The notes under the pieces were generated by a model that ran no database searches, was not told the DNA's origin, and was given only the letters and a program-made list of their open reading frames with translations. A DNA stretch of 64,000 nt from a bacterium (GTDB lineage Bacteria > Armatimonadota > Fimbriimonadia > Fimbriimonadales > Fimbriimonadaceae), in NCBI GenBank assembly GCA_013823945.1, contig PNMZ01000001.1:248001-312000 (forward strand). The letters run 5' to 3'. Positions 4,030 through 26,094 of this stretch are shown one piece after another. Made by a program: the position numbers and the translations under genes. How positions within the stretch are numbered: the stretch's first letter is position 1; each line of letters begins with the position of its first letter.

Positions 4030-6420
4030 TCAGTAATCGGTGGCTAAATGGGCCGGATACGGAACTCCTGGCTTGGCCCCTTGCCAGAGAATCCGGTTAA
4101 GATCGGCGAAGTTGGCTTTGTCGTAAGCGGAGAAGTCGAGCTTGGCGGATCGACGGGCAAGCTCGGTGTTGCTGGGGTTGATTTCGTTGATATCAACACC
4201 GGGCGGAAGAAGCTTGAATGGGGTGGGGTCGTATTTGCCGGCGAAGGCGGCAAGCATTGGTGTGGCCAACCCATCAAAAGCGGTCATCGGGGGAAGCCCC
4301 AGGGCTTTTTCCATCGTGAGGAGCATCGAAGCGGTGGTGTAATGTGTGCTATCAACCACAGCCCTCCGTGAATAGGGGGAGCAGACATAGCCGACGGTTC
4401 GGTGGCTATCGACGTGATCCGGGCCGCCTTGGGCGTCATCTTGGATGATAAAAATAGCGGTGTTGCGCCAGAACTTGGAGCGACTCATGCGTTCGACGAG
4501 TTGACCAACAGCACGGTCATTATCGGCGATCATGGCATTGGGGGAGAATGATCCGGCATCGAACCCGTGGGTGTGGTCGTCAGGCAGAGCCATAACCATG
4601 AGGGCGGGCATCTTGCCGGTGCGTTCGAACTCATCGAGTTCTTTGAAGAACGAGGCGATCTTTTCGGTATCCCGTCCACCGCGGGCGAAGATGCGTTCCC
4701 ACTCTTCGGCATATCCGTAACGTTCGGGATCGGCCTTGTGTTCTTCGCTATTCAGAGAATTGTGGTCTTCCTGGACGTCGACGTATTCGCCGTAGACCCT
4801 GGCCCAGAGTCCGTTTTTGCGGGCAAGGTTCCAAATGTATTCAGGCGATGCGGTCATTCGTTTATCGCTGCGGGGCTCTGGACGGTTGCTGTAGTTAAGT
4901 ACCCAGGCTTTTTCGGTGTAATCGCTAGCGTAGGCGGAAGTTGTCCATTGGTGGCCGGCTTGCGAGGTTTCGCCATCGGTATAGAGGTTATCAAAGAGTA
5001 GAAACTGCTTAGCGATAGCATGCCCGTTCGGGGTGACTCTTTCGCCATAAAGGGTGAGGGTGGGATCACCGTTTCCTTGGGGGAGGTCGCCGAGGACTTG
5101 GTCGTAGGTGCGGTTTTCGCGGATGACGAAAATGCAGTGCTTGATCTGCTTGAGATTCTGTTCTGCCCTGGCTTTGAGTGCAGGGGAAAGGGTGACGTTG
5201 CCGATGCCTTTAGGTCGGTTTTCTGCAGCTTGGCGGGTGAGCTTGACGAGATCGCGAGATGTTGGGACGGGGAGGATGCGGATGTTTCCGGCGAGTTGTT
5301 TGCCGATGTAGATATTGCGCTCAGTCGGCGGGTGGGTAGCTCCGGCAGGCCGGGTGGCGGCACCACCATTTGGCCCATAGGAGCCTTTTCCGGTTGCGAT
5401 CAAGAGCGACTTTCCATCAGGAGTAGCAGCTACGGCAGTCGGGAATTTTTGAGTCGGGATGTGACCGATCAGCTGGGGTCTGGTGGATTGCATGTCGAGT
5501 ACGGCGATGGCGTTTTCACCGCCCAAAGCAACGTATGCAGTTTTCGAATCAGGGGAAATGGCGATGGCTTGGGGCATGGCTCCAACGGCAAAGCGGGGAT
5601 CGACGGCAACGGTAATCCGGCTCATTTCGGAACCTCGGATTGCAACGACGGTGTTGGAATTACTTTCGGTGACTAGAATCGTGCCGTTTTTGTGCCACAC
5701 GATGGCAGATGGGTGGTCGCCCACGTGGTATCGGCCCTTGAAGGCAAGGGTCGCGGCATCGAGGAGGACAACGGAGCGGTCGCCCCATTCAGTGACGGCG
5801 ATGGTCTGCCCGTTGGGGGAGATTGCGATTCCGAACGGTCGATATCCAACTTTGGCTTTATGACGGAGGGATCCGTCGGTATGCATGAGGATGACTTCGT
5901 TAGACCGGATGTTGACGGCGTAGAGTCGTTCTCCCTGGATTGCCATGTGGGCGATGAACTTGGAGCCTTCTTCGACCAAGGGGAGAGGCGAGGGATTGAT
6001 CTTGGTTAAGGATGACTGGGTGGCAAATCTTAAGATATTGGCGTTGGGGGCTTCTTTAGTTTGGCCGCCGCCAGAGACTAGGAGCTGGTTGCCAGATCTG
6101 ACCATTCCGACCCAGTTGTTTTCAAGAGCCAGCGTTGCGATGGCTTTTTGAGCTTTGAGGTCAATGGTGGTGATGGAGTGGTCGTGGTAGCCGCAGGTGT
6201 TGACGTAGGCTCTGGTTCCATCGGCGGAGAAGATAATGCTACCTGGCATATCGCCGGGGAGGTCGATTGATTTTCCGACGGGAGAGACTCGCCAGCCGCT
6301 GTGAAGAGTGAACTGCCTTTTGAATTTGTCCCATCCGACGGCGGGGATTCCTTTAATGACGATTGATGCGGTAGCAATCCCAAGGAGTGCAAAAGCGACG
6401 ATGGAGAGCAATTTTTTCAT
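4030..6420 (-). CDS. Beta-propeller and phosphoesterase-family secreted protein
   Basis: This 796-residue protein starts with a signal peptide (MKKLLSIVAFALLGIATAS); the frame is open to 6444 but this start fits export. Residues ~40-360 are a YVTN/YncE-like beta-propeller with repeats such as 'GDMPGSIIFSADGTRAYVN' and 'GAMPQAIAISPDSKTAYVA'. The second half is the PF04185 phosphoesterase family (acid phosphatase/phospholipase C type): 'IKHCIFVIRENRTYDQVLGD' holds the metal-site Glu-Asn-Arg-Thr, and 'FIIQDDAQGGPDHVDSHR' holds the Asp and His ligands. It probably acts outside the inner membrane on phosphate esters. The substrate is unknown. It is downstream of a small lipoprotein gene on the same strand. 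Confidence 0.88.
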   Translation of the reverse strand: MKKLLSIVAFALLGIATASIVIKGIPAVGWDKFKRQFTLHSGWRVSPVGKSIDLPGDMPGSIIFSADGTRAYVNTCGYHDHSITTIDLKAQKAIATLALENNWVGMVRSGNQLLVSGGGQTKEAPNANILRFATQSSLTKINPSPLPLVEEGSKFIAHMAIQGERLYAVNIRSNEVILMHTDGSLRHKAKVGYRPFGIAISPNGQTIAVTEWGDRSVVLLDAATLAFKGRYHVGDHPSAIVWHKNGTILVTESNSNTVVAIRGSEMSRITVAVDPRFAVGAMPQAIAISPDSKTAYVALGGENAIAVLDMQSTRPQLIGHIPTQKFPTAVAATPDGKSLLIATGKGSYGPNGGAATRPAGATHPPTERNIYIGKQLAGNIRILPVPTSRDLVKLTRQAAENRPKGIGNVTLSPALKARAEQNLKQIKHCIFVIRENRTYDQVLGDLPQGNGDPTLTLYGERVTPNGHAIAKQFLLFDNLYTDGETSQAGHQWTTSAYASDYTEKAWVLNYSNRPEPRSDKRMTASPEYIWNLARKNGLWARVYGEYVDVQEDHNSLNSEEHKADPERYGYAEEWERIFARGGRDTEKIASFFKELDEFERTGKMPALMVMALPDDHTHGFDAGSFSPNAMIADNDRAVGQLVERMSRSKFWRNTAIFIIQDDAQGGPDHVDSHRTVGYVCSPYSRRAVVDSTHYTTASMLLTMEKALGLPPMTAFDGLATPMLAAFAGKYDPTPFKLLPPGVDINEINPSNTELARRSAKLDFSAYDKANFADLNRILWQGAKPGVPYPAHLATDY

Positions 6421-6469
6421 GAGACAATTGATGTCCCCAACCATTTGGTTGGGGACTGGTCGATTGGGC

Positions 6470-6754
6470 TTATCGCCCGACTTCGTTGGGATTTCCGAGG
6501 TCGCCGGGCTCGTCGTCGACGTCCGGTTTAGATCCCGGAGCCAGCGGAGTGTTTTCGGCGGTATTTGGGTCGGCTGGTGTTGTTGATGGGGCTTGCCCTT
6601 CTTTGTGAGATGGCACCATCACAACTTTTTGTTCAGCAGGTGGTTGTGAGGATGCGGGAGGGGGTGGTGCCCCATCCTCGCATCCGAACATCGCCCACGT
6701 GCAGACCAGACCGGCAATGATCAAGAGTGATTGTTTGGTCATCATTTGAGTCAT
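6470..6754 (-). CDS. Small proline-rich lipoprotein
   Basis: The start at 6754 overlaps the stop of the upstream prepilin-like gene (TGATG), implying coupled translation; ATG 6745 and 6742 are alternatives. The 94-residue product has a basic start (TKQS), a hydrophobic stretch (LLIIAGLVCTWAMFG) and a Cys that could be lipidated, though the lipobox 'MFGC' is not ideal. The rest is a low-complexity Pro/Ser/Thr/Glu tail ending 'DEPGDLGNPNEVGR'. It looks like a spacer or surface lipoprotein of unknown function. Confidence 0.65.
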   Translation of the reverse strand: MTQMMTKQSLLIIAGLVCTWAMFGCEDGAPPPPASSQPPAEQKVVMVPSHKEGQAPSTTPADPNTAENTPLAPGSKPDVDDEPGDLGNPNEVGR

Positions 6755-7713
6755 CACGGCTGGAGGTCGGGTCGGAAGATCGGCACGTGGCACTGACTGT
6801 CAACGAAGGTCAATGCTTGCGAAGGGAATCCAGAAGCGAGGTAGGTGGGATCGGCCACGAACGGATCGTTCTTGGAGTCGCCGGTGCCGGTGCGTCGTGT
6901 TTTGGCGTGGGTATCGGCAAAGACCCAGTTTTGGGATTTGCTGTACGCCCAGACGGTGCCATACGCAACGTTGCCCATCTTGGATTGCGACCCGTTGTTA
7001 AAGCCCGGCGTGTTGTGGTTATCTTGGTTGTTGCAGCTGGCGGCAGAGCCAAAGAACGCTCCGTTGCCGTTGAATACACATCCTGCGTTCGGATCAGCAC
7101 AAATCAAGAACGGGTTGGTGTAGGTGTTACCGACTCGGTTTGTGGTTCCAAACCCAGGCCACCACAGTGGAGTTGTCGAAACCGAAGTGATGGCAGTCTG
7201 TGAGAGCTGTGTGAGCAGACCGTTCATGCTGTAACCGCTTCGATACGGCTCAACCTTTTTATTGGCGGCCGAGTAATCGAATGAACTACTTGTTTCGTCG
7301 CGGGCCACGGGGATCGCGAACATTTGGCTGTTTTTGAGGTAGGGATAAATTTGGTTTTGTGGCAGTCCCCAGGCACCCTTTACGCGACTGGTGCATCCGC
7401 TGGCTTGAACGGCGTTGAGGGCGATGTTCCAATCGGCGGGGATAAGAACGCGGGAGTTGAAATTCCATGTTCCAAGTCCGTTAGCGGCGGCGTCGCAGTC
7501 GCGTCCGGCTTGTAGGGGAAACAAGTCATCATAATCGGTTGAGTAGATCATGAGCGAGGTTCCCGTTTGCTTCATGTGCGCCATATCTTGAGTCTTTTTG
7601 GCGGCGACTTTCGCTTGGGCGAAAACGGGGAAGAGGATCGCGGCGAGGATCGCGATGATGGCGATGACCACGAGAAGTTCGATGAGTGTGAATGCAGATT
7701 GCTTGGTTGACAT
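6754..7713 (-). CDS. Prepilin-type cleavage/methylation protein (pseudopilin-like)
   Basis: This is the second paralogue with the '[13 protein letters not shown]' signal and 'LFPVFAQAK' helix end, 319 residues long. The start at 7713 follows GGAGGG at good spacing. The body contains 'HMKQTGTSLMIYSTDYDDLF', several Cys pairs (RDCDAAANG, ASGCTSR, CADPNAGC) that could form disulfides outside the membrane, and a late 'WVFADTHAKT'. It is followed by the overlapping small lipoprotein gene. No pilus motor or peptidase gene is near. Confidence 0.88.
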   Translation of the reverse strand: MSTKQSAFTLIELLVVIAIIAILAAILFPVFAQAKVAAKKTQDMAHMKQTGTSLMIYSTDYDDLFPLQAGRDCDAAANGLGTWNFNSRVLIPADWNIALNAVQASGCTSRVKGAWGLPQNQIYPYLKNSQMFAIPVARDETSSSFDYSAANKKVEPYRSGYSMNGLLTQLSQTAITSVSTTPLWWPGFGTTNRVGNTYTNPFLICADPNAGCVFNGNGAFFGSAASCNNQDNHNTPGFNNGSQSKMGNVAYGTVWAYSKSQNWVFADTHAKTRRTGTGDSKNDPFVADPTYLASGFPSQALTFVDSQCHVPIFRPDLQP

Positions 7714-13664: not shown

Positions 13665-16055
13665 TCAAGCAGCTCGGCGCAAGTCTTGTGCCGCATTCGA
13701 CTTCTTCGATTTTTCCGTCTCAAACCGATCCGTCAGCAATGCTAACTCAGAAGAGAGATCCGCCAAGTCACTCGCATTTGCCGTCAACTCTTCCGTCGAA
13801 GCCATCTGCTCTTGCGAAGCAGCTGAAACATCGGCAATGTTGTCGGAGACTTCCATAACCGAATCAGCCATTGTTCGAGAAGCTTCCGTATTCGCCTCAG
13901 TCGTCTCCGCAACCGAAGTCACTGCGACCTGCATAGCTGATGCTAAGGACTGAACTTCCTTCGCACTCATGTCAACTTCATCAACCGGATTCCGGAGAGC
14001 TTCAACCTGCTCCACAATGTGCTCAAGCACTTCGCGAGTCTTGGTCGAAAGCTCTGCTCCCGAGTCAACCGCCGAATCTGCTTCCTTCATGGCTGATGTG
14101 GAATCACCGACTAACTTTCGGATTTCGCCGACTAGGCCAGCAATATCTTGCGTCGCCAGACTACAGCGCTCCGCCAATTTGCGAACTTCTTCCGCAACCA
14201 CCGCAAAGCCCTTGCCGTGCTCACCCGCTCTTGCTGCCTCAATCGCCGCGTTGAGCGCCAACAAATTGGTTTGCTCGGCAATCTCGCTGATCGTATCAAT
14301 GATTGAGTCAATTTGCTCTGACTTCGCGTTCAAATCTGTCAACTTTGTTCCAACCACCGAAGTCGTAGATCGAATCAGATCCATTCCTTCCAAGGTTTTC
14401 TGAACGGTCAAGCCACCTTCTCGCGCCGACTCATGAGTATGCAAGGTCGCTTCTGCAACTTCGGCAATCTTCTCGCTCACCTGCGCGACTGCTTCCGCAA
14501 CGGTCTGAACTTGGTCAACAATTTGCTGCAATGTCTGAGCTTGCTCATCGTTAGCATTAACAACATCCTGCAACCCACTCGTTGTGTTGTGAATTGTCGA
14601 AAGGATTTCCGTACTCCGCTCTGCAACACTTTGCGCCGCATCAGAAATACTCTGCGAAGCTCCGTTCAGGCCCGCTGACATCTCCTGAATCGTCGCGCTC
14701 ATCGACTGAATGTCGGAGATCGTCGAGCTAAAATTCTCCACAATCAGCTCAAGCGAAGAACCAATTTCATCATCTGTTTGCTCAGAAGCCGGGTCACGGG
14801 TCAAATCACCACTTGCAATCCGCTTTGTCCAAACAGAATGGCTCTGCAACTTACCAATCAGGAACCGGCAGTTCTCCGCAAGCACTCCCAGCTCATCCTC
14901 ACTCTTGTGAGCAATCTGAACATCCAAGCTTCCGGTCGAAACCGATTTGAGCCCCTGGGCCATTTCTGTAATCGGGCGAGCCAATGATCGAGCCAGGAAT
15001 GTCGCAAAAGCTGCAACCAAACCCGCAACGATCAACGAGAGAAGCAACATCTTCCCGCGAACACCAGCCGCCGTACTCATGAACTCCGATTCATCCACTC
15101 TGACAATAGCCGACCAACCAAGGCCCGCATAGCCTAAAGCTCCAATTGAAGTGAACGTTCCATTCACAACCTGCTTCCCTTCGTAAACCCCAAATCCATT
15201 TCCTGGTTTTGCGGCAAGCGCATTTTTCGCCGCCATATCTGTGGAACCGTTCAACTGTTTCGCCAGGATAACCGCCGAGTCATGCTTGAATTCAGCCCCA
15301 TCTTTCGAAGGATTGTAATAACTCAGAATCTTGCCTTCGTTGTTCACAAGTTCAATACGGGCCGAAGTATTGCCACCCTTCTTCAACTCGGCGTAAGCAT
15401 CACTCAAAATCGATTCAACGAGCGAAACTCGGGCGTAATTCCGCCAAATCCCAATCATCTCACCCGATGTGTTATAAACCGGAGCTGTATAACCAATATA
15501 AGCTCCCGTGCCACCAAAAATCCCCTTCAAATCCTCGTCGATGTAGGCATCATCAACCCAGGTACCGGTGAGCGCATCTGTAGACAAAAACTCTTTGTTC
15601 TTCGCCTTTTGGAACCACTTTGAATCGGCAAAATTCTGACCATAAAACGAAGAAGTATCAGCTGCATTTCCTTCAAAATCATTCGTACTCACCGCCGCAA
15701 CATTCCCCTTCAAGTCGACGAGCATCATCAACTCGTAGATGGGGGTGTATGTGGACATATACTGATTCATGATCTGGGAAACTTTATTCTTATCCCCCTT
15801 GACATACCACTGGTTCTGATCATAAATACCTTGGTTCAAACCAAACGCCTGAACATCACCATACCGTTCAAACAGGTTTCGTTCAATCCGACCAACAACC
15901 GTTTCTGCTGCGGATTCCAACGATCCTGCACGCTTGGTTGCCGCCGAATTGATTTCCGACATCGCAACAAAACTGGCAATCAAGAGCGGCACAATTCCAA
16001 CCGCCAAAAAAGCCGCCAAAAGGCGAACTCCAACTCGTTCCTTAAACACTCTCAT
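13665..16055 (-). CDS. Methyl-accepting chemotaxis protein with double-Cache sensor
   Basis: This is a transmembrane chemoreceptor of 796 residues, starting at ATG 16055 with AGGA six bases upstream. TM1 is at about residues 9-32 ([19 protein letters not shown]). The periplasmic region to about residue 325 looks like a double Cache ligand-binding domain ('[19 protein letters not shown]', '[20 protein letters not shown]'). TM2 is '[20 protein letters not shown]', followed by a HAMP domain and a long signalling coiled coil. Its hairpin tip is the conserved '[20 protein letters not shown]' and '[15 protein letters not shown]'. No che genes are in the window. It may signal to a flagellar or type IV pilus chemosensory system. 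Confidence 0.93.
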
Positions 16056-16218
16056 CGTTGTTCCTGGTTCATTGGCCCGCAAAAATGCAGAGCCCCAAAT
16101 GCTTATCGGCAAATCCAACCTGATTTCTTCACCTTAGAAATTTGTCGTGAACACCACAATAAATAAATTGTGATTTTCCAAGTACGACTACCGATAATTC
16201 TCACAGGGAAACAAGGAA

Positions 16219-16827
16219 ATGGATTCGGGCATTCTGCAAACCGCAATCACGGGCCAAGTTCAAATAATCGGGCTATCCCTTGCCCTCACACTTCCATTTC
16301 TTTTCAAAAAGTCAAAATCTGACAAAAATTCAACGACCTCCCCTATCAAGCAAGTTGATCCAATCGCTGAACTCCGAGCAGAAGTCGCCGCACTCCAAGC
16401 CGAAAATGCCGCACTCCGGATCGACCTGCATCAAATCCAATCAATTCAAGGGGCTACCCTTGAGCGGTTTCGAACAACCTTTTACGAAATCCCTCTGCCA
16501 TGCTTCACCGTCAATGACCAGGGCCATGTGATCGAATGGAATCGAGCCTGCGAAGCATTTTTCAATCTTCCCGAGCACCAAGCCATTGACCGCCCAATGG
16601 CGGACATCCTTGGACAAGGCATCTTCCGCAATGACGCCGAAGGAATGATCTACATGGTCTTTCTGGGAATGAACCCCCAACCCATCGAGATAGAACTCCA
16701 ACAAGGGGAACAAACCAGAGTCGTCAAGTGGTTCGCCAGTCCAATCATGAACCGCTCCGGACAAGTCGTCGGTGCTCTCAACACCCTAGCGATCATTCCC
16801 AAAAACGAGATCAGCAACCAAAATTAA
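16219..16827 (+). CDS. Membrane-anchored PAS-domain protein
   Basis: This 202-residue protein has an N-terminal membrane segment (IIGLSLALTLPFLF), a heptad-like coiled coil at about 50-85 ('ELRAEVAALQAENAALRI'), and a PAS domain at about 90-195 ('TFYEIPLPCFTVNDQGHVIE', 'WNRACEAFFNLP', 'ASPIMNRSGQVVGALNT'). No kinase, GGDEF or other output domain follows, so it could be a sensor subunit. AAGGAA precedes the ATG closely. It is divergent from the chemoreceptor gene and convergent with the MinD-like ATPase gene, suggesting but not proving a shared signalling role. Confidence 0.8.
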   Translation: MDSGILQTAITGQVQIIGLSLALTLPFLFKKSKSDKNSTTSPIKQVDPIAELRAEVAALQAENAALRIDLHQIQSIQGATLERFRTTFYEIPLPCFTVNDQGHVIEWNRACEAFFNLPEHQAIDRPMADILGQGIFRNDAEGMIYMVFLGMNPQPIEIELQQGEQTRVVKWFASPIMNRSGQVVGALNTLAIIPKNEISNQN

Positions 16828-16845: not shown

Positions 16846-17676
16846 CTAAGCCGCTTTGTCTTCTGAATCTTCCGTCTTCTTTCCAAAAACGCTCTTTATC
16901 CGTCCCAACATCGATATCTCTTCTGTTGCCTCAGCCTCAACCCCAAGTCCCATAATCGCATTCGCCGCATCGACTAAATCCTGACTCGGGCCCGCCGTCG
17001 GAAAAGCACTTGCAAAGATACGTCGTTCCGCACATGCCCGCGCAACCAGGGAATCATGTCGAATCGACCCCCAATATTCCAACTCCTGGCTCAAAAATTG
17101 GCCCACAATTCCTTGAACTTCGCTGGCGACTCCACGACCCTGGGCCGGAGAACCGACATGGTTCACAACCAATCCTGCCGTCAAGCTCGGATTCACATCC
17201 CAAGCATTTTTGAGCAAAGCATAACCGTCCATCAAACTTGCCGCCTCACTCGTTGTCACCACCATCAAACCCTGGCTGGCCCGTAAAAATGGGAATACGC
17301 GGTTCCCAACCCCCGGAGCACAGTCGATCAAAACATGATCGTATGTATCCGCCAACACCATCAAATCCCCAACCAAAGCATCAATCTCCGCTCCCTCAAG
17401 CTGAGCCAACTCCTTCCAACCACTTCCCCCAGAAATTAGGTCAAATCCGGCTTTCGTCGGCACAACTGCATCGCGCAATTCGCGACCATCCCTCACAATG
17501 TGCCCAAGCGTACATCCCACCTCAATCCCGCAATAAACATCACAATTCGGCAAGCCTAAGTTGCCATCAAACAGAAGAACTCGCTTTTGATCTCCCGCAA
17601 TGATTGCCGCGATACTGCAAGCAAGTGCCGTCTTACCGACTCCGCCCTTACCACTACAAATTGCGACCGTTTTCAT
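16846..17676 (-). CDS. MinD/FlhG-like deviant-Walker ATPase
   Basis: This 276-residue P-loop ATPase is of the MinD/ParA class. The start is ATG 17676 with GGAGA seven bases upstream. The deviant Walker A 'CSGKGGVGKTAL' is at 8-18, with the extra Lys of dimerising ATPases; 'LLFDGNLGLPNCDV' is the A' motif and 'HVLIDCAPGVGN' is Walker B. The C-terminal 'SMLGRIKSVFGKK' looks like the amphipathic membrane-targeting helix of MinD/FlhG. It lacks the DQAxxLR N-terminal motif used by FlhG to activate FlhF. It follows, by 16 bases, the gene for a protein with repeated FliM-like motifs, which may be its partner. It is not MinD proper: no minC or minE is present. Confidence 0.9.
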   Translation of the reverse strand: MKTVAICSGKGGVGKTALACSIAAIIAGDQKRVLLFDGNLGLPNCDVYCGIEVGCTLGHIVRDGRELRDAVVPTKAGFDLISGGSGWKELAQLEGAEIDALVGDLMVLADTYDHVLIDCAPGVGNRVFPFLRASQGLMVVTTSEAASLMDGYALLKNAWDVNPSLTAGLVVNHVGSPAQGRGVASEVQGIVGQFLSQELEYWGSIRHDSLVARACAERRIFASAFPTAGPSQDLVDAANAIMGLGVEAEATEEISMLGRIKSVFGKKTEDSEDKAA

Positions 17677-17692
17677 CAAATCTCTCCAGCAC

Positions 17693-19558
17693 CTAAGCTA
17701 TCTTCTTCCACAAATCGCCCATTTTTTCTCTCAAGCTAGGTCGTCTTTGAGCCCCGGACATCACCGCAAACCGGGCGTGATAGTCCTGAACTTCGGCGTA
17801 CGCTTCTCGCAAACCAGCGATCACCTGGTCAATCGGAGCCGGCTCAACCAGAATCCCAAACCCAATCGCCTGGCTCATTCGATCCAACGCCACTCGATCA
17901 ATCGGCTCAGCCACTTGACACAGAATCTTGCCTTCTTGGAACCGAATCGGCAAGGCCATCGCGCGTACCGCAAAGTGGGCCGGAACTGCCTTAATCGCCC
18001 CAATCTCACTGCTGCCTTCCGATGCTTGCGCTTGTGGCTTTGAAAAATTAACGGGATCCGATCCAACAAATCCGAACGTATTCTCTTCCTTTTCTTGAGC
18101 TACTGGTTTCTCAACTGGCGCACCGAGTAACGCCCGTAACTCCTCATCACTCATCGCAGATGATGAGCTTGGAACGACTTCACCTGGTTCATCTGGTGTG
18201 TCAAGAAGAGCCGCTATCTCTGCTGCTGACATCACGCCATCGGCCCTATTCGCAGCCTCCGCTTCCTCAGCCGCCTTAGCTTCCGCCGCCGCATCAAGCG
18301 CTTCGGCTTGAGCATCAATATTTCCCTTGACAAGCGCGACTAAGTCTTCCTCAGTTAACGAGTCAAGGTCAAAATCATCTTCGATCTCGGGCTCCTCCGG
18401 TTTTTCCTCGACTGCTCCCAACTCAATCGCCGCCGCGATCTCATCATCAGAAAGTTCTGCTGCATCTGATTCTGCCGCCACAAATCCAGAAACATCCGTT
18501 TCATCCGCATCGGTGCTTGCAAACATCGCGGCAATCTGATCCGCCGACAATTCGCCGTCATCGGGAATCGTAGCTAAATCGTCAACCGAAACCTCAGCAA
18601 CTCCCCCAGCAAACATCGCCGCAATCTGATCCGCCGACAGTTCGCCATCATCGGGAATCGTAGCTAAATCGTCAACCGAAACCTCAGCAACTCCCCCAGC
18701 AAACATCGCCGCAATCTGATCCGCCGACAGTTCGCCATCATCGGGAATCGCTGCAAAATCAACTGCTGAAGCTGTCGAACTCACTTCGGTGCTCGTGCTC
18801 TCGTCGACCTGGTCTTCTTCGACCACTTCCGCCATCACTTCATCAAATCCACTCAACAACGCCCCGGATTCTTCCGGCGTAAGCGATGCATCCTCCTCAT
18901 CGTCTTCGGAATTAAAGGCCTCGATTGCTCCCATCAATCCCGGAAACTGTGCTTCAATCTCTTGAGAATCAACCGTCTGCTGAACATAATCCTCTTCAGA
19001 GTCGTTCGCATAAAATTCAGCTGGCATTTCATCCGGATGTTCAGATGCAAGATCAATTTCCTCTTGCGTTACTTCAAGGCTCACCCCGGTGGCCGTCGTC
19101 GCATTAAATTGGGCCACTTCTGCCAAGAGCCCTGGATTCTTCTCTTCAAATCGAGGAACGTTCAGAGCAGGAATTTCCACCACCTCCTCATCCAATTCCG
19201 GCTGCCAAAAATCGTCAGGCATCATATCCGGATGGGCGTTCGCCTGGTCAATCTCTTCCTGACTCAGCTCACCCAAGCCATAACTCAGCTGCTCACCCTG
19301 ATCACCCCCCGATTCAGGCTGATTAACCCCCTCTGTCACTCTAGGAGCCACAACTTGAGTCCGCAATTCGCCCACCTCTGCGGTCAGCGTCTGAATCTGC
19401 GCCATCAATTGGGTCAAAACATCCGCCGGAACCGCCACGGTTGTCACTTCGGCAACGACAGGCTCAGCCGGAACAACATCCTTTGCCTTGGGAGAACGCG
19501 TTCGTTTCTCCACTTGCTGTGCCTCCTCAACCGATTCTTTCTTCTTCCGCGCCGGCAT
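17693..19558 (-). CDS. Acidic multi-motif protein (repeated EIxAL-type motifs) with C-terminal MshEN domain
   Basis: This 621-residue protein starts at ATG 19558; an upstream TTG at 19579 is less likely. After a basic start and short coiled coil, it is long, acidic and probably disordered, and carries about ten copies of a short helix motif: LSQEEIDQA, VTQEEIDLA, LTPEESGALL, LSADQIAAMF three times, LSDDEIAAAI, LTEEDLVALV, MSAAEIAALL and MSDEELRALL. These resemble the 'LSQDEIDALL' segment at the N-terminus of FliM/FliN. The first two are each followed by HPDxMPxxF. Residues ~495-590 are a type II secretion/pilus ATPase N-terminal (MshEN) domain ('AVPAHFAVRAMALPI', 'CQVAEPIDRVALDRM'), with no ATPase attached. 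The tail 'SLREKMGDLWKKIA' may be an amphipathic helix. Confidence 0.8.
   Translation of the reverse strand: MPARKKKESVEEAQQVEKRTRSPKAKDVVPAEPVVAEVTTVAVPADVLTQLMAQIQTLTAEVGELRTQVVAPRVTEGVNQPESGGDQGEQLSYGLGELSQEEIDQANAHPDMMPDDFWQPELDEEVVEIPALNVPRFEEKNPGLLAEVAQFNATTATGVSLEVTQEEIDLASEHPDEMPAEFYANDSEEDYVQQTVDSQEIEAQFPGLMGAIEAFNSEDDEEDASLTPEESGALLSGFDEVMAEVVEEDQVDESTSTEVSSTASAVDFAAIPDDGELSADQIAAMFAGGVAEVSVDDLATIPDDGELSADQIAAMFAGGVAEVSVDDLATIPDDGELSADQIAAMFASTDADETDVSGFVAAESDAAELSDDEIAAAIELGAVEEKPEEPEIEDDFDLDSLTEEDLVALVKGNIDAQAEALDAAAEAKAAEEAEAANRADGVMSAAEIAALLDTPDEPGEVVPSSSSAMSDEELRALLGAPVEKPVAQEKEENTFGFVGSDPVNFSKPQAQASEGSSEIGAIKAVPAHFAVRAMALPIRFQEGKILCQVAEPIDRVALDRMSQAIGFGILVEPAPIDQVIAGLREAYAEVQDYHARFAVMSGAQRRPSLREKMGDLWKKIA
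18570..18749 (-). repeat. Perfect 90-bp tandem duplication inside the multi-motif gene
   Basis: Two adjacent 90-base units (18570-18659 and 18660-18749) appear identical base for base. Each encodes 30 residues including 'IPDDGELSADQIAAMFAGG'. A third, partial copy at about 18522-18569 differs at a few positions. Identity at the base level, not just the protein level, points to a recent duplication that added one motif. Confidence 0.9.
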
Positions 19559-19633: not shown

Positions 19634-22396
19634 TCAATCGTTTTCTTCCGAAGACTGATCTCGACGTTTCTTCTTCGCCGCCAGCAAACTCCCGGCTGTG
19701 GAAATCGGCTCACTTTGATCAGTTGCTTTTTCCTTCTTCGCTTTTCGTGTTCGCACGACCGGCGCTCGTTCACCAGAACCTTCAATTCGAGCAACTGACG
19801 CTCTCACTGGTTCCTCATCTTCGGCCCTTTTCCGTCCAAAAGCTGGCAAAGGAACAACAACCCGCCGCACCAAAACATCCAACGGTAACAGGAACAAAGC
19901 CGCCAAAAGGAACAAGCGCCACAAGTCCGCAACGCTTTCACCCCGGTTAGCGATCTCCCGCATCGCTTCCTGACCTCCTTTCAATTTCTTCCCCCCAGTG
20001 ACACTCGCCAACCCTTCCAACAACGGCAAATTCGTCATCGAACTCCGATACTCCGGAGGATAAGGAATCGAAAAACCGTTGCTCGCAACCCGCGCCTCAC
20101 CCTGCCCCCCCGGCTCAACCACCGAAACGATATAACTGCCAACCTCACTTGCATCAAAATTTCCCGAAAAAACCCCCGGTGCTTCTTGGGTCAAAACTGC
20201 TTTCTGAGAATTACCCGCCGGATCGCTCACCCGGACTTCCAAAGAATCTTGCGTCAAAGGATTCCCACTTCGATCCCGTGCCTGGAGTCGGATCACACCC
20301 TTCCCCCCTTCCGGCGAAACTTGCAAGTCGTAATTGTTCACCGCCGCTTTCCGCGTCAAAGTCCGCACCGCTTGCGCCCAAAACTGTCCAAAACCTCCCC
20401 ATCGCACCCATTCACTTGCCCACCGGTTCTGAGCATCACTCGTAAACGCCATCGAACGGCCCAGACCATATTGCCAGCTCGCAAGAAGCGGATCATCTTT
20501 CTGTGTTCGCATCGCTACTCGCGCCAAGGGCCGGGCTTCTGTCAAACAGTAAGCCATCAATGCCGGAAAACCGTCGAGCCCCCTGGTCACTTCATCGCCA
20601 CCCATCACCTTTGGCGTGAACGCACCTTCCTCAATTGCTGACCTCGACATCAAGCTCACGTCCTGAGTGAAAATCTGCGGCAACTTCTTGGCATCATCCA
20701 CGAAGTAATGACGCCCACCGCCGACCGCCGCCAGATTCTTTAAAAATGGAACATCCTTCCCATCCCCAATAGCAACCGTTGAAACTGTAATCTTGTCCGC
20801 CTTCATCGCCGCCGCAATCGCAAGACTCGTACCGTGCTGGTCACAGTCCGAACCATCCGCCACCAAGATGAAGTGCCGAACCCGCGTATCTTCCTGGCCC
20901 AATTTTTCATGGGCAAACTTCACCGATGGTTCCGCAAAAATCCCCCCTCCCCCGTCCTTCAACAATCTCACCTTGCTTTTGACGGCCCCCTTATCTTTAA
21001 GCTCGGCAATCGGTGCCACATAATCCACCCGACTCCCACTTCCTGCCACCCCAAGCCGATCTGTCGGGCCCAGGAGGTCGGTCGTCAGAACCGCCGCATT
21101 TGCTGCCATTTGGAGCTTGGTCACCCCACCGATATTCATCGACATACTCCCACTGGTATCCACCACAATCAACACCGAAGTATTCGGAAACACTTTTCTC
21201 TGCCGGATGTTCAGGTCAACCGGAAGAGCTTCTGCCACAGGAGTTCCGTACCACCCTCCTGGCAGAAAACTATCCTCACCCCCAATCATCATCAGACCAA
21301 TCCCACTATCCCGAACGGCATTCCGAAGCATCCGCATTTGCAAATCAGTAGTCAAAGAAGCGTTAAAATCATTCAAAATTACCGCGTCATAAACTTGCAA
21401 GTCCTCAGGTCGGGCCGGCATCATACTTGCCCCTCCAAGCTGAACAGTTATCCCCTGCTCGCTCAAAGCCATGGCCAGTTCCCGTTTCGAAGTGTCTCCT
21501 TGAATTAGCAAAATCTTAGGCCGACCTTTGACCGCCACAAACGCGGCTCCTAAATTATTACGATTGTCTGTATCGTCCGGTACTTCCAAAAATGCTCGAT
21601 AACGATAAAACCCGGGATCCTTCAACTCCTGATTAACGACCACCGTCGAAGTCCCCGCTGGAATACTAACTGGAACCTCAGAAACCGCTTCGCCATTCCG
21701 CTCGATCACCAACCGCCCTGTCTGTGCCACAGAAGACTGGACCACCGCCCGCATCTCAAACGGTTGATCGGCCGACTGTTCACTCGGCGCACTCAACTCT
21801 AAAATCGCCGCTTCCGCCCGCCCCTTGTCCAATCCGAGCGGAACGATGTCAACGGCAACTCCCTCGGCAGCGATACTCTCAATTGCCCCCAAAGCGTCGC
21901 CCTTCGTCTCATTTCCGTCGCTCAAAACCACTATTCGCCGACTCTTTTCGCTTGGAAAGCTCGCCATCGCTAACCGCAACGCTGCCCCCAGATCACTTGC
22001 CGACCCATCAACAACTGATTCAACTTCGTTAAACGGGCGACGACCCCCCGGTGCTGCTTCCATTGCCGGAACACCGCCAAATGCGACAATTCCCACTCGG
22101 TCATCCTCCCCCATGCCGCGCATCGCTTCGTTCACAAAGTCAATCTGCTTCTTTCGGTCCTTTTCGCCAATGCTGTCCGACCGATCGACCACGAAAAGCG
22201 TCGTCATTCCCCGGTTGGGACGTACCGACTGCGGCCCCATGAGCGCACCAATCAATGCTCCAAAAAGCAAAAACCGTAGCCCAAACGCAATTGCTTTCCG
22301 CACCGGAACCATTCCATGAACCCGGCTCCAGCTCACGACCAATCCCACAATGAGCGGAATAAAAAACAATCCCCAAATCGGCTCTAAGAATCTCAT
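19634..22396 (-). CDS. Membrane protein with two von Willebrand A domains and a GATase-like domain
   Basis: This 920-residue protein is the last of a nine-gene operon. Two N-terminal membrane helices (about 8-24, 35-54) lead to a first VWA domain with the metal-site motif DRSDS at 71-75. A beta-sandwich region follows. Next is a class I glutamine-amidotransferase-like segment ('VYDAVILNDFNASLTT', 'GLMMIGGEDSFLPGGWYG'), which is interrupted by or runs into a second VWA domain with DTSGS at 413-417. A further beta domain, a C-terminal membrane helix ('LWRLFLLAALFLLPLDVLV') and a basic tail complete it. Both DxSxS motifs are intact. It starts one base after the upstream gene's stop codon. Confidence 0.88.
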   Translation of the reverse strand: MRFLEPIWGLFFIPLIVGLVVSWSRVHGMVPVRKAIAFGLRFLLFGALIGALMGPQSVRPNRGMTTLFVVDRSDSIGEKDRKKQIDFVNEAMRGMGEDDRVGIVAFGGVPAMEAAPGGRRPFNEVESVVDGSASDLGAALRLAMASFPSEKSRRIVVLSDGNETKGDALGAIESIAAEGVAVDIVPLGLDKGRAEAAILELSAPSEQSADQPFEMRAVVQSSVAQTGRLVIERNGEAVSEVPVSIPAGTSTVVVNQELKDPGFYRYRAFLEVPDDTDNRNNLGAAFVAVKGRPKILLIQGDTSKRELAMALSEQGITVQLGGASMMPARPEDLQVYDAVILNDFNASLTTDLQMRMLRNAVRDSGIGLMMIGGEDSFLPGGWYGTPVAEALPVDLNIRQRKVFPNTSVLIVVDTSGSMSMNIGGVTKLQMAANAAVLTTDLLGPTDRLGVAGSGSRVDYVAPIAELKDKGAVKSKVRLLKDGGGGIFAEPSVKFAHEKLGQEDTRVRHFILVADGSDCDQHGTSLAIAAAMKADKITVSTVAIGDGKDVPFLKNLAAVGGGRHYFVDDAKKLPQIFTQDVSLMSRSAIEEGAFTPKVMGGDEVTRGLDGFPALMAYCLTEARPLARVAMRTQKDDPLLASWQYGLGRSMAFTSDAQNRWASEWVRWGGFGQFWAQAVRTLTRKAAVNNYDLQVSPEGGKGVIRLQARDRSGNPLTQDSLEVRVSDPAGNSQKAVLTQEAPGVFSGNFDASEVGSYIVSVVEPGGQGEARVASNGFSIPYPPEYRSSMTNLPLLEGLASVTGGKKLKGGQEAMREIANRGESVADLWRLFLLAALFLLPLDVLVRRVVVPLPAFGRKRAEDEEPVRASVARIEGSGERAPVVRTRKAKKEKATDQSEPISTAGSLLAAKKKRRDQSSEEND

Positions 22397-22397
22397 G

Positions 22398-24221
22398 TCA
22401 TGACCGCCTCATGAATACAAACCATTCCAAAACCAATACTCCCATCATCAAAGCAATCAACGGCTTCCACAAGTCCGCAAATCGCTCCATCGGCTTCGTC
22501 TGAACAGCCTCTCCACCCGCAATCGCAAACTCCGAAGCCGGTGCAATCGCTGATTCACGCTCCGAGGTCAAATTCACCAAATACTCCCGGGCATCTTCTC
22601 CCTCACCAACCGAATAGCGACCAACTCGGTCAAATCCTCGCAGAGTAAATCGACCATTCAAAGCCGTGACCGACTCCATTCCCGCCGGACCTTTCACCGC
22701 AAGCACATCACCATCACGCCCGGGAATACCAATCGTCTGCCCCGTCACCAAAGTCGAATACCCGCGTTGTCGCTCGCCTGCAGCCAAGTCGACAAGATTG
22801 CCAAGCAAAATCGGAAAGCTCACACTGAGCGGAAAATCACCATCCAACAAATCAAACGCAAAGTAGATCTGTCGTTTGGGTGCATCTCGTTGCAGCACAA
22901 GTGCCCCTTTGGAATCCTGTGCCAACACCCGCGACCCTGCCTTAGGCTTCGCCTCATAAACACTCGCTATATAGACCCCTTCAAAACTTACTCCTTCCAA
23001 AACCCCCGTTTCCTCCACAGAAATCACTTCCGGCGTTCCCAACTTCGCCCCAACATCCGCCGCCGAATTCTTCCCCCCGGCTCCAAAAGTCACCGTCATA
23101 GGAGCTTTAACCGCGACCTCTGGCACCGAGTCAAAAATCACCAAATCATAATTGCCCGCACCTCCCTTCCCAGCCAATTCAGAGTTCGGCACAGTTGCCG
23201 CTTTGTCCAACACAACCCGCGCATCCAAATTAAGCCCCGTCTCCAAGAACAAATTCCCACGCGTCACGAGCAAAACGCGCAACGAGCCCGATGGATCACC
23301 CGGAACCATCCGCTGATCATCCGCCGACAGAAAACCGCCTTTGCTCACCCGCGCCCGAACAACCGATACGTCACCCGGAACCGCGACGGTCCGTCCGATT
23401 GTTCCCCCCGCAGGAACATCAACTTCCGCCGAAAAAATCGCCCGATCATCAGCATAAACCGTCAACGGTGTTTGGGCCGCCTCTGATCCGAAATTCTTCA
23501 CTCCCACATAAGCCTGCAAACCCTTCGGCGTCTCCGATGTTCCCAAAGCCGTAACAGCCACATTCGCTCCAGATTTCCCAATCGGCTCAAAAACAATCTC
23601 CGATTTTCCCCGGCTCACCTCACCTACCGGTTCAAAAACTCCATCACTCAAAACGACTATCCGAGAGGTTGCATCCCGCCCCACCAAAGCCATTGCGAGC
23701 CGCAAACTCTCACCCAAATCACCCGGCGCATCGCCACGCCTCAAGCTCTCAGCCCCCTGCTTCAACTTAGCCGGATCATTTGCCAATCCCGTTACAACTC
23801 TTGGCGTTGCTCCTGCCTCGATTAAAGCCATCTGATCCCCCGGCTTCATCGCCGCAATCAATTCCTCCGCCCGATTCACCGCTACCCCAAACCGATCCGG
23901 AGCAACATCCGTCGCTCCCATACTCGCACTTCCGTCAACAATGAGAACCGTCGTCAAACCCTGGACGTTTTCCTGACGCATTTGCCATCTTGCCAACCCC
24001 AAGACCAAAAACGCCAATGCCACCAACTGCAATACCCACAGCCAATTGAACTTCAACTTCTGAAAAAGCGAATTGGCCCGCACTTCATCCTCTCGCTCCG
24101 GCCACAAAAAGCTCGCCGGAATCACGAAATCACGTCGGCGCAATCGTAACAAATACAAAGCCAAAATGAACCCTCCAACCGGCAAAAACCACAACAAACT
24201 CAATGGCGATTGAAAACTCAT
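22398..24221 (-). CDS. BatA-like N-terminal membrane and VWA-domain protein
   Basis: This 607-residue protein begins with the BatA N-terminal signature: a membrane helix with 'LWFLPVGGFILALYLLRLRR', then 'LFQKLKFNWLWVLQLVALAF'. A VWA-like domain follows with the metal motif DGSAS at 96-100. The middle is beta-rich and the end has one more membrane helix (LIALMMGVLVLEWFVFM). It overlaps the DUF58 gene by 4 bases. In related clusters such proteins act with MoxR ATPases as membrane-bound partners, but the substrate here is unknown. Confidence 0.88.
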   Translation of the reverse strand: MSFQSPLSLLWFLPVGGFILALYLLRLRRRDFVIPASFLWPEREDEVRANSLFQKLKFNWLWVLQLVALAFLVLGLARWQMRQENVQGLTTVLIVDGSASMGATDVAPDRFGVAVNRAEELIAAMKPGDQMALIEAGATPRVVTGLANDPAKLKQGAESLRRGDAPGDLGESLRLAMALVGRDATSRIVVLSDGVFEPVGEVSRGKSEIVFEPIGKSGANVAVTALGTSETPKGLQAYVGVKNFGSEAAQTPLTVYADDRAIFSAEVDVPAGGTIGRTVAVPGDVSVVRARVSKGGFLSADDQRMVPGDPSGSLRVLLVTRGNLFLETGLNLDARVVLDKAATVPNSELAGKGGAGNYDLVIFDSVPEVAVKAPMTVTFGAGGKNSAADVGAKLGTPEVISVEETGVLEGVSFEGVYIASVYEAKPKAGSRVLAQDSKGALVLQRDAPKRQIYFAFDLLDGDFPLSVSFPILLGNLVDLAAGERQRGYSTLVTGQTIGIPGRDGDVLAVKGPAGMESVTALNGRFTLRGFDRVGRYSVGEGEDAREYLVNLTSERESAIAPASEFAIAGGEAVQTKPMERFADLWKPLIALMMGVLVLEWFVFMRRS

Positions 24222-25105
24222 TCCACCCAGCCACCTTTCTTGAATATCTCCCCAAAAACCTGACTGACCCCCGCATCACTTCCCACCAAAGCGTATCGCC
24301 CGCCGAACCGTTTGACCGTTTCCTCAATCGAAGAGTTGTGCTGCGCCAAGTTTTTTCGGTACTCCGTCAATGTCGGACCATTTGCCGTGATCTCAACCGC
24401 CGCACCACTCTCCGCATCAATCAATCGTAAATCCCCTTCAATTCCCGGGTCAAGCTCAAACGGCGACAACACCTGGACAACCCAAATCTCATGTCCCGCC
24501 GCCTTCAATTGGGCAAGTGAACCTCCAAGGCTCTGATCCATTCCGTCTGTCAAAACCACCGCTAAACCTGTTCGAGACATTAACTTCGCTGCTTGCTTAA
24601 GGTGATACGAAACCGGTCGAACACCATCCATCCGCAAGCTTTCCAACCACCCCATCAATTGCACCGTTCCTCGCCTGCCTCTTAAGAATCGTGTCCGGTT
24701 CACCCCGTCGTTCAACGACACCGCCATGACCGAATCCCCCGCCCTGCTCGCTACCACCCCAAAGGCTGCCGCTAATCGCCTAACTGCTCCCCCTTTTCCA
24801 GGTTCACCGTAATCCATGCTCTTAGAACAGTCAACCAAAAGGTAAACGGGCAAGTCCTCTTCGTCCTGATATGTTTTGACGATAGGAACCCCTAATCGAG
24901 CTAAAACATTCCAGTCCAAGTGCCGTAAATCATCCCCATCCGCATACTCCCGGTAATCTTTGAACTCGAGCGAAACCCCCTTCTCTTTCGCCAAACGCTC
25001 ACCGCGAACCCGACCAGTAAAAGACTTCCGCGGCTTCAGACGCAACCGCTCCAGCACCCGTACATCACGGATGTCCAGAAGCGGAGTCAGAGTCTGTTCA
25101 TTCAC
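24218..25105 (-). CDS. DUF58 domain protein
   Basis: This 295-residue cytoplasmic protein is of the DUF58 family, which forms part of MoxR-associated modules. Its marks are 'SLEFKDYREYADGDDLRHLD' followed by 'WNVLARLG', and a VWA-like fold with 'PVYLLVDCSKSMDYG' and 'AVVLTDGMDQ'. DUF58 proteins are thought to interact with the MoxR AAA+ ATPase. The gene overlaps both neighbours by 4 bases (MoxR upstream, BatA-like downstream), a strong sign of a single translated unit. Confidence 0.93.
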   Translation of the reverse strand: MNEQTLTPLLDIRDVRVLERLRLKPRKSFTGRVRGERLAKEKGVSLEFKDYREYADGDDLRHLDWNVLARLGVPIVKTYQDEEDLPVYLLVDCSKSMDYGEPGKGGAVRRLAAAFGVVASRAGDSVMAVSLNDGVNRTRFLRGRRGTVQLMGWLESLRMDGVRPVSYHLKQAAKLMSRTGLAVVLTDGMDQSLGGSLAQLKAAGHEIWVVQVLSPFELDPGIEGDLRLIDAESGAAVEITANGPTLTEYRKNLAQHNSSIEETVKRFGGRYALVGSDAGVSQVFGEIFKKGGWVE

Positions 25106-26094
25106 ACTTTGATCGGGTCTTTGTCGCCCGCATTGACCGTCTCAATAATGCCGTCAACCACTTGGTCAGCCGTGACGCCATCTGCTTCCGATTCATAGTT
25201 CATGATCAATCTATGCCGCAGAACTGGCTTCGCTGCCTTCACAACATTTTCCTTACTTACATTGAACCGACCCTCCAACATTGCGAAGACTTTGCCTGCC
25301 GTAATGATCGCTTGCGCTCCCCTGGGCGAGGAGCCATAACGCACATACTTCTTAGACATAGCCGCCGCCGATTCACTATCCGGATGACTCGCCACAATAA
25401 TTGAGAGCGCGTAATCCAAAACCTCTGGGCTCACACTGACCTCACGAGTAATCAGTCGCGCCCGAATCAAATCTTCCGCACTAGCCACACGCTGAACGTG
25501 CGCCATCTCCCCTTGAGTTGTGCGGTTGACCACTTCGGCAAGGACCGCTTTGCTTGGATAAGGCACCAAAAGCTTAAAGAAAAACCGGTCAAGCTGAGCC
25601 TCCGGAAGCGGATAGGTTCCTTCTTGCTCCACTGGGTTCTGTGTTGCCATCACCATGAACGGCTCCTCCAAATGGTGGACTTTTCCTCCCACCGTCACTT
25701 GCCGCTCCTGCATCGCCTCCAGCAACGAACTTTGCGTCTTCGGAGTCGCCCGGTTGATTTCGTCCGCCAAGACAAAGTGCGCGAAGACCGGCCCACGTCG
25801 AAATTCGAATCCCCCTGCTTGTGTGAAAACGTTTGTTCCTGTCACATCCGCGGGCATCATATCCGGTGTGAACTGAATTCTCGAAAAATCCAAATCCACT
25901 ACCTGCGCCATCGTCCGAATCAAAAGCGTCTTTCCTAGTCCCGGCATCCCCTCAAGCAAAACGTGACCGTTTGCCGCCAATGCGACCAAAACTCCCTCCA
26001 CAACATCATCCTGTCCAACGACAACTTTGCCAATCTCACTGCGCAAAGATGTCCATGTCTTCCTGAACCATTCCGCTGCCTCCAATCCTTTCAT
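25102..26094 (-). CDS. MoxR-family AAA+ ATPase
   Basis: This 330-residue chaperone-like AAA+ ATPase has Walker A 'LLEGMPGLGKTLL', Walker B 'HFVLADEINRATPKTQ', sensor 1 'MVMATQNPVEQEGTYPLPEA' and arginine-rich 'AQLDRFFFKL'. It has the normal length and all key residues for ATP hydrolysis. MoxR proteins help mature or activate metal- or VWA-containing partners. The immediate partners here are the DUF58 and VWA proteins encoded downstream in the same operon. It starts 3 bases after the coiled-coil protein gene. Confidence 0.95.
   Translation of the reverse strand: MKGLEAAEWFRKTWTSLRSEIGKVVVGQDDVVEGVLVALAANGHVLLEGMPGLGKTLLIRTMAQVVDLDFSRIQFTPDMMPADVTGTNVFTQAGGFEFRRGPVFAHFVLADEINRATPKTQSSLLEAMQERQVTVGGKVHHLEEPFMVMATQNPVEQEGTYPLPEAQLDRFFFKLLVPYPSKAVLAEVVNRTTQGEMAHVQRVASAEDLIRARLITREVSVSPEVLDYALSIIVASHPDSESAAAMSKKYVRYGSSPRGAQAIITAGKVFAMLEGRFNVSKENVVKAAKPVLRHRLIMNYESEADGVTADQVVDGIIETVNAGDKDPIKV

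Follow-up and report, generated by a model that had tools for sequence, protein, structure and literature searches.

How did a FlhG-like ATPase come to be encoded behind a protein that displays the N-terminal peptide of FliM many times over, and what does this protein bind? The question is raised by two adjacent minus-strand genes in a window of 64,000 nucleotides (positions 248,001 to 312,000 of contig PNMZ01000001.1, assembly GCA_013823945.1) from the 3.16-Mb genome of a member of the Fimbriimonadaceae, phylum Armatimonadota. The first gene encodes the scaffold P0002 and the second the ATPase P0001. A close relative is 'Armatimonadetes bacterium Uphvl-Ar1' (CP021423), whose copy of the ATPase is 97% identical to P0001.

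The scaffold and the ATPase form a conserved pair

In each of the 16 Fimbriimonadaceae genomes in which a scaffold was found, its gene immediately precedes that of the ATPase, and the conserved adjacency expected from a sequence-only reading of the window is thus real. We consider it very probable that P0001 and P0002 are a functional pair. FlhG-like ATPases of the order were sorted by what directly precedes them or is fused to them. In class A, a ladder scaffold with the C-terminal half of an MshEN domain (MshEN_C) precedes the ATPase. The class B partner is a full MshEN protein of 183-248 residues, and the class C partner is a full MshEN protein of about 440 residues that also has a weakly kinase-like stretch and a comparable amphipathic tail. 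In class D, represented by L087 8998-10143 of the source genome, the ATPase is fused behind MshEN_C. No class A pair was found outside the Fimbriimonadaceae in a 151-genome sample of the phylum at an E-value of 1e-12, and the ladder-partnered ATPases stand on one side of a branch with support of 97/96, recovered in 98% of 200 bootstrap trees, although several rows of the tree are long.

The recurrent pairing of MshEN-type proteins with FlhG-like ATPases, including a fusion, is good evidence that the two work together. This pairing is the conserved core, and the ladder is a family-specific elaboration of it.

Several side observations concern the members of these classes. In the class C partners (L076 8267-9604 and relatives), which lie beside a FlhG-like ATPase, the full MshEN is succeeded by a stretch that looks like a degenerate protein kinase. 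In genome G021, L198 4883-6067 encodes a protein that combines two domains of the MshEN type with the same amphipathic tail at its C-terminus; it has neither a ladder nor an adjacent ATPase. The scaffold of Uphvl-Ar1 (L109 6520-8315) reads as two open reading frames near a repeat unit. The cause may be a frameshift or sequencing error, or the gene may truly be split.

P0001 is an ATPase of the FlhG/FleN lineage

Both sequence and fold place P0001 in the FlhG/FleN lineage. Its closest solved relatives are FleN (5j1j, 1.9e-33) and FlhG (4rz2, 2.8e-27), with MinD and Soj well behind, and its predicted fold repeats this ranking, with Z scores of 35.1 for FleN, 33.9 for FlhG, up to 29.9 for MinD and 26.8 for Soj (Foldseek matches were also obtained). 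P0001 remains far below both MinD cut-offs, reaching 63.9 of 212.9 bits for TIGR01968 and 86.3 of 201.75 bits for TIGR01969. The FlhG/MinD-like ATPase that the sequence-only reading had placed 16 bases after the scaffold is therefore borne out.

The deviant Walker A P-loop KGGVGKT is present. The DQAxxLR segment, which stimulates FlhF in FlhG, is absent from the start of P0001 (MKTVAICSGKGGVGKT / MKTVAICSGKGG), as the same reading had stated. It had also predicted a C-terminal amphipathic helix, and a short amphipathic stretch was indeed computed there: the class A ATPases share an SMLxRLKSxFSK stretch near the C-terminus with a hydrophobic moment of 0.5-0.6. The scaffold, too, finishes in a short amphipathic stretch.

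Two class A ATPases lack the Walker A lysine, namely those of G014 (L196 3329-4024) and G022 (L099, ATPase after 9248). Both still follow a motif-bearing scaffold, and judging by their P-loops they are possible pseudo-ATPases.

P0002 carries a ladder of FliM-like motifs

For scoring P0002, 15 distinct 10-mers from the N-termini of FliM proteins in the same order were compiled into a matrix. Ten segments reach at least 6 bits, starting at residues 98, 163, 226, 277, 307, 337, 369, 401, 443 and 469. In 2000 shuffles of P0002 the mean at this threshold was 1.25 and the maximum 6, and at 8 bits or more the protein has nine segments versus 0.42 in the shuffles. The remaining proteins of the window gave 33 hits in 19,214 residues, no protein having more than four. 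The motifs are thus more than random acidic helices, and the count of about ten proposed from the sequence holds at the lower threshold. The segments at residues 98 and 163, however, look in the alignment like part of a different conserved block (..EEIDxAxxxPxxMPxxF..); with these two set aside, about eight segments form the ladder proper.

Three of the units lie inside a 90-bp tandem repeat, so the motif copy number is still changing. Most orthologues have 2 to 8 motifs at 8 bits, with units such as MSEEEIAALL and MSDDQIAALL. Between the closely related genomes G003 and G005, identity is 91% in the motifs and 60% in the linkers (p 2e-7), with 31 synonymous and 6 nonsynonymous codon changes in the motifs versus 73 and 70 in the linkers. 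The motifs are under purifying selection, and this selection is motif-specific.

An AlphaFold model of a read-through product, in which the scaffold and the ATPase are in frame across a single TAG (L112), has good domains and low confidence in most of the ladder. We also considered that the ladder derives from a helix of the N-terminal half of MshEN (MshEN_N). This origin was set aside for most units, which are closer to the FliM matrix; it may apply to those at residues 163 and 401, which are slightly closer to the MshEN_N matrix.

Outside the ladder, a motif of the form xxPGLxxxIxxFN occurs twice in P0002 and recurs in most class A scaffolds, as read from the aligned sequences. The scaffold N-terminus has a net charge of +3 to +6 in most orthologues and of 0 or less in G004, G010, G011 and G022. 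Neither a FliM (PF02154) nor a SPOA (PF01052) domain was among the Pfam matches of P0002.

A FliM-like ladder was also observed in a zf-HC2 anti-sigma-like protein of G012 (L197 4854-6422), which has a probable membrane segment and repeats of the LSADQIAAM type, three to four in number. The neighbours read included no FlhG-like ATPase.

The MshEN half-domain lacks the cyclic di-GMP site

An MshEN domain without an ATPase domain had been described at the C-terminus of P0002. The Pfam matches indeed include no AAA ATPase domain of the PilB/GspE type; of MshEN, however, only the C-terminal half is present. PF05157 matches residues 523-588 with 26.8 bits (cut-off 23.1) and covers only profile positions 19-85. 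The core is predicted with a local distance difference test score (pLDDT) of 89-96, and the fold has Z scores of about 9 to 10 against known MshEN folds, matching MshE residues 71-145 and the equivalent part of the N-domains of PilB, PilF and GspE.

The binding site for cyclic di-GMP (c-di-GMP) is located in the 53 residues preceding MshEN_C, with two 24-residue motifs of the form RLGxx..G....L...L..Q (PMC5013675). No tandem RLG motifs, even in the relaxed form of that study, were found in P0002 or in any class A scaffold. Most class B and C partners have one or two of them, and the class B partner of the source genome (L086 11532-12146) matches c-di-GMP-bound MshE at 5e-14 over both motifs. 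Control by c-di-GMP through the scaffold, which had been raised as a possibility, is not supported by these motif searches. Since the motifs are missing from the ladder scaffolds and kept in the paralogues, any c-di-GMP input would belong to the paralogues.

Genomic context

The coordinates of the pair, its elements and its neighbours are given in Table 1. The order MoxR, DUF58, BatA-like, VWA, scaffold, ATPase and PAS is retained throughout the genus wherever the contig extends far enough. The VWA gene adjoins the pair in G010 and G017 and is about 6 kb distant in G011 and G023. The PAS product is small and has a hydrophobic N-terminus. A chemoreceptor gene (13665-16118) was considered as a component of the system and rejected, because its adjacency is not conserved: it is near the pair in only three genomes (the source genome, G006 and G002). 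A direct pilus or flagellar link is thus absent from the neighbourhood, the locus being a MoxR-DUF58-VWA operon.

Table 1 Features of the P0002-P0001 locus, with positions in the 64,000-nucleotide window.
Feature	Position	Strand	Remark
MoxR	25102-26094	-	operon member ahead of pair
DUF58	24218-25105	-	operon member ahead of pair
BatA-like	22398-24221	-	operon member ahead of pair
VWA gene	19634-22396	-	conserved upstream neighbour; not claimed as part of the mechanism
Scaffold/partner protein P0002, 621 residues	17693-19558	-	16 bases ahead of ATPase gene
Basic N-terminus (MPARKKK...KRTRSPKAK), net +3 over first 35 residues	19454-19558	-	scaffold P0002
Heptad-like conserved helix PADVLTQLMAQIQTLTAEVGELRT, probable coiled coil	19355-19426	-	helix predicted in orthologue
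EIxAL-like segment 1, LSQEEIDQAN	19238-19267	-	11.7 bits; within other conserved block
Second-type conserved short motif, copy 1, FEEKNPGLLAEVAQFN	19103-19150	-	recurs as xxPGLxxxIxxFN
EIxAL-like segment 2, VTQEEIDLAS	19043-19072	-	6.9 bits; within other conserved block
Second-type conserved short motif, copy 2, EIEAQFPGLMGAIEAFN	18911-18961	-	xxPGLxxxIxxFN kind
FliM-like motif LTPEESGALL	18854-18883	-	13.7 bits
90-bp tandem repeat carrying three motifs	18519-18750	-	2.6 copies, 97% match
FliM-like motif LSADQIAAMF, repeat 1	18701-18730	-	matrix match and tandem repeat
FliM-like motif LSADQIAAMF, repeat 2	18611-18640	-	matrix match and tandem repeat
FliM-like motif LSADQIAAMF, repeat 3	18521-18550	-	matrix match and tandem repeat
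FliM-like motif LSDDEIAAAI	18425-18454	-	14.1 bits
FliM-like motif LTEEDLVALV	18329-18358	-	8.3 bits
FliM-like motif MSAAEIAALL	18203-18232	-	17.4 bits
FliM-like motif MSDEELRALL	18125-18154	-	13.2 bits
MshEN_C half-domain, without MshEN_N and c-di-GMP motifs	17789-18016	-	Pfam and fold
C-terminal amphipathic tail of scaffold SLREKMGDLWKKIA, putative membrane anchor	17696-17740	-	amphipathicity computed
FlhG/FleN-like deviant-Walker-A ATPase P0001, 276 residues, without N-terminal DQAxxLR	16846-17676	-	
C-terminal amphipathic stretch of ATPase ISMLGRIKSVFGKK, putative membrane anchor	16876-16917	-	conserved in class A; hydrophobic moment 0.56
PAS-domain gene	16219-16827	+	tail-to-tail with ATPase gene; kept across genus

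No flagellar genes are present within the window, as the sequence-only reading had remarked; the genome nevertheless has a flagellum, with a FliM that carries the peptide LSQDEIEALL and is encoded in a cluster of export-apparatus-like genes. FliM is likewise present in 57 of the 61 genomes of the order. FlhF was not found in the source genome, which holds only two GTPases of the signal recognition particle type, taken as Ffh and FtsY. In this genome, with FliM and without FlhF, the pair is thus not a canonical FlhF/FlhG pair.

We also compared the retention of the FliM motif with the presence of chemotaxis genes or FlhG. The motif is kept in nearly all genomes, including G021, G030, G034, G037 and G051, which lack both, and a dependence on either was dropped as this near-universal retention makes the comparison non-discriminating. 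Examples of FliM with the EIDAL peptide where CheA/CheW and a FlhG-like ATPase are both absent are found at L164, L169, L173, L176 and L187.

What the ladder may bind

FlhG has been reported to bind the N-terminus of FliM (PMC12826062), and the partner proteins of A/D ATPases are described as engaging their ATPase through a basic disordered N-terminus (PMC10241942). We tentatively propose, as a working model that falls somewhat short of being probable, that P0002 and P0001 form a two-gene module for positioning and number control, akin to ParA/MinD/FlhG systems, in which the ladder holds the ATPase multivalently. Taken by itself, the assignment of the pair to the positioning or number-control type seems to us evenly balanced, and the putative binding of this ATPase by the ladder is put forward with reserve.

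In the proposed mechanism, the ATPase would dimerise on ATP and be held at the membrane by the amphipathic helix at its C-terminus. The scaffold, which is adjacent to the ATPase and inherited with it, is its dedicated partner, and its basic N-terminus and coiled coil may serve ATPase engagement and oligomerisation. MshEN_C is common to all MshEN/FlhG-like pairs of the order and would be the likeliest constant contact of the ATPase; the amphipathic tail of the scaffold would bind the membrane. Between these parts, the acidic flexible region displays many copies of the peptide found at the N-terminus of FliM itself. The ladder could hold FlhG-type ATPase molecules multivalently, as the FliM N-terminus does with FlhG elsewhere, and the scaffold could thereby compete with FliM or mark a membrane site, so that the availability of the ATPase would be tied to flagellar switch assembly. 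Such FliM-linked control would operate in a genome with FliM but without FlhF.

It is tempting to go further and regard the scaffold as a multivalent mimic of the FliM N-terminus that captures several ATPase dimers together at the membrane, withholds them from FliM and so sets flagellar number or place without FlhF. In this view the scaffold arose when repeats took the place of MshEN_N in an ancestral partner of the MshEN type. We regard this extended version as unlikely.

Binding of the FlhG type suits the pairing, but several results weigh against a ladder that holds the ATPase. In G029 the class A pair lacks any motif at 8 bits. Pairing in general does not require the ladder, since the ATPases of classes B and C, about 28-36% identical to P0001, are partnered by MshEN proteins without one. 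A ladder also occurs in the unrelated zinc-finger membrane protein of G012, with no ATPase among the neighbours read. In G004, G010, G011 and G022 the basic character of the scaffold N-terminus is weak or absent. Replacement of the Walker A lysine in G014 (GKGGVGQS) and G022 (KGGVGRT) fits poorly with an obligate ATP cycle. Finally, genomes that lack both CheA/CheW and a FlhG-like ATPase still have the motif in FliM, and the peptide therefore probably has other duties.

Some of these results suit a different division of labour, in which the ladder binds cargo or another regulator and the ATPase is met by MshEN_C, the basic N-terminus or both. The EIxALL helices would then be a multivalent hook for a protein with a FliM-helix pocket, as in ParB/McdB-type systems, where the partner contacts the ATPase by its N-terminus and the cargo by its remaining part. 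In favour of this arrangement, MshEN_C occurs in pairs with and without a ladder and forms one protein with the ATPase in class D; the ladder in the unrelated zf-HC2 protein and the partner-protein rule of PMC10241942 agree with it too. However, FlhG itself is known to bind the N-terminus of FliM, and no conserved cargo candidate lies beside the pair, where the MoxR-DUF58-VWA and FBPase-like genes look unrelated. We consider cargo binding rather unlikely, though worth serious attention.

MshEN_C could alternatively mean that the pair is an accessory of type IV pili or type II secretion: P0002 would dock through MshEN_C on a PilM/GspL-like platform, and the ATPase would set the number or place of the machines built. 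MshEN_C is the half that contacts GspL in the GspE-GspL complexes 4pht and 2bh1, both among the fold matches, and a contact of the PilB N-domain with PilM has been inferred (PMC11656802). In the source genome, moreover, a GspE/GspF/pilin-like cluster is found some 3 kb away from the class B pair. The class A locus, however, is a MoxR-VWA operon in which no pilus genes are seen by the pair, and the class D fusion is instead about 1.6 kb from a flagellin-like gene (5975-7429), which makes such docking improbable in our view.

The best known ligands of the FliM N-terminus are CheY-type proteins, CheY binding its EIDAL motif (PMC6946799), and the ladder might be a docking array for phosphorylated CheY-type regulators that couples chemotaxis signals to the ATPase. 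A chemoreceptor gene adjoins the pair in this window, and in family f1 CheA occurs in 14 of the 16 genomes that have the pair and in 11 of the 21 that lack it (p 0.035 by Fisher's test, with no correction for kinship). The chemoreceptor is a neighbour only in the source genome, G006 and G002, however. CheA is also absent from G003, whose assembly is one contig and 99% complete, and from G005, yet both have 5-7 motifs under selection. This retention of ladders where CheA is missing disfavours CheY binding by the ladder, and we hold this reading to be very doubtful. That the motifs are acidic low-complexity helices without a specific partner is scarcely credible: the ladder region is acidic, repetitive and predicted with low confidence, but none of the 2000 shuffles reaches the observed count, and the motifs are far better conserved than the linkers, nonsynonymous changes in them being few.

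Discussion

In its general layout the pair resembles the A/D ATPase systems (ParAB, McdAB, MinDE, PpfA/ParC), in which a MinD-like ATPase is encoded beside a flexible coiled-coil partner, mostly with a basic N-terminus. P0002, like these partners, is encoded beside its ATPase and inherited with it; here, however, the partner bears a FliM-peptide ladder and MshEN_C. BcsQ with BcsR/BcsE of cellulose secretion likewise combines a MinD-like ATPase with non-ATPase regulators, and BcsQ is among the fold matches, but no sequence relation was seen between the partners and no cellulose genes were noted by the pair.

The components differ from their nearest relatives as well. P0001 shares with FlhG/FleN (4rz3, 5j1j) the nearest sequence and fold, the KGGVGKT loop and the C-terminal amphipathic stretch, and FlhG is a reported binder of the FliM N-terminus; unlike FlhG, P0001 has no DQAxxLR N-terminus, no FlhF in its genome, a location outside any flagellar operon and a dedicated scaffold. 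P0002 shares with FliM the 10-residue pattern LSxxEIxALL, at up to 17.4 bits, but repeats it up to ten times, internally, with no FliM or FliN domain among its Pfam matches. With the MshEN/GSPII domains of MshE, PilB, PilF and GspE it shares the C-terminal half by Pfam and fold, without the c-di-GMP-binding half or the AAA ATPase domain. Together, the pair looks like one that works as an A/D ATPase positioning pair, and by the tests run it is not FlhG proper, MinD, FliM or a c-di-GMP-binding MshEN.

We found no description of this architecture in searches of the open-access literature, one of which was aimed at multi-copy EIDAL proteins and gave nothing relevant. To our knowledge, partner finding by FlhG-type ATPases is understood in only a handful of flagellated model species, and nearly all work on the FliM peptide concerns a single copy. 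The Fimbriimonadaceae present ladders of 2 to 9 copies beside one clade of FlhG-like ATPases, next to paralogous pairs that keep the c-di-GMP-binding half-domain, and thus offer a natural set for probing multivalency, c-di-GMP input and partner choice within one ATPase family.

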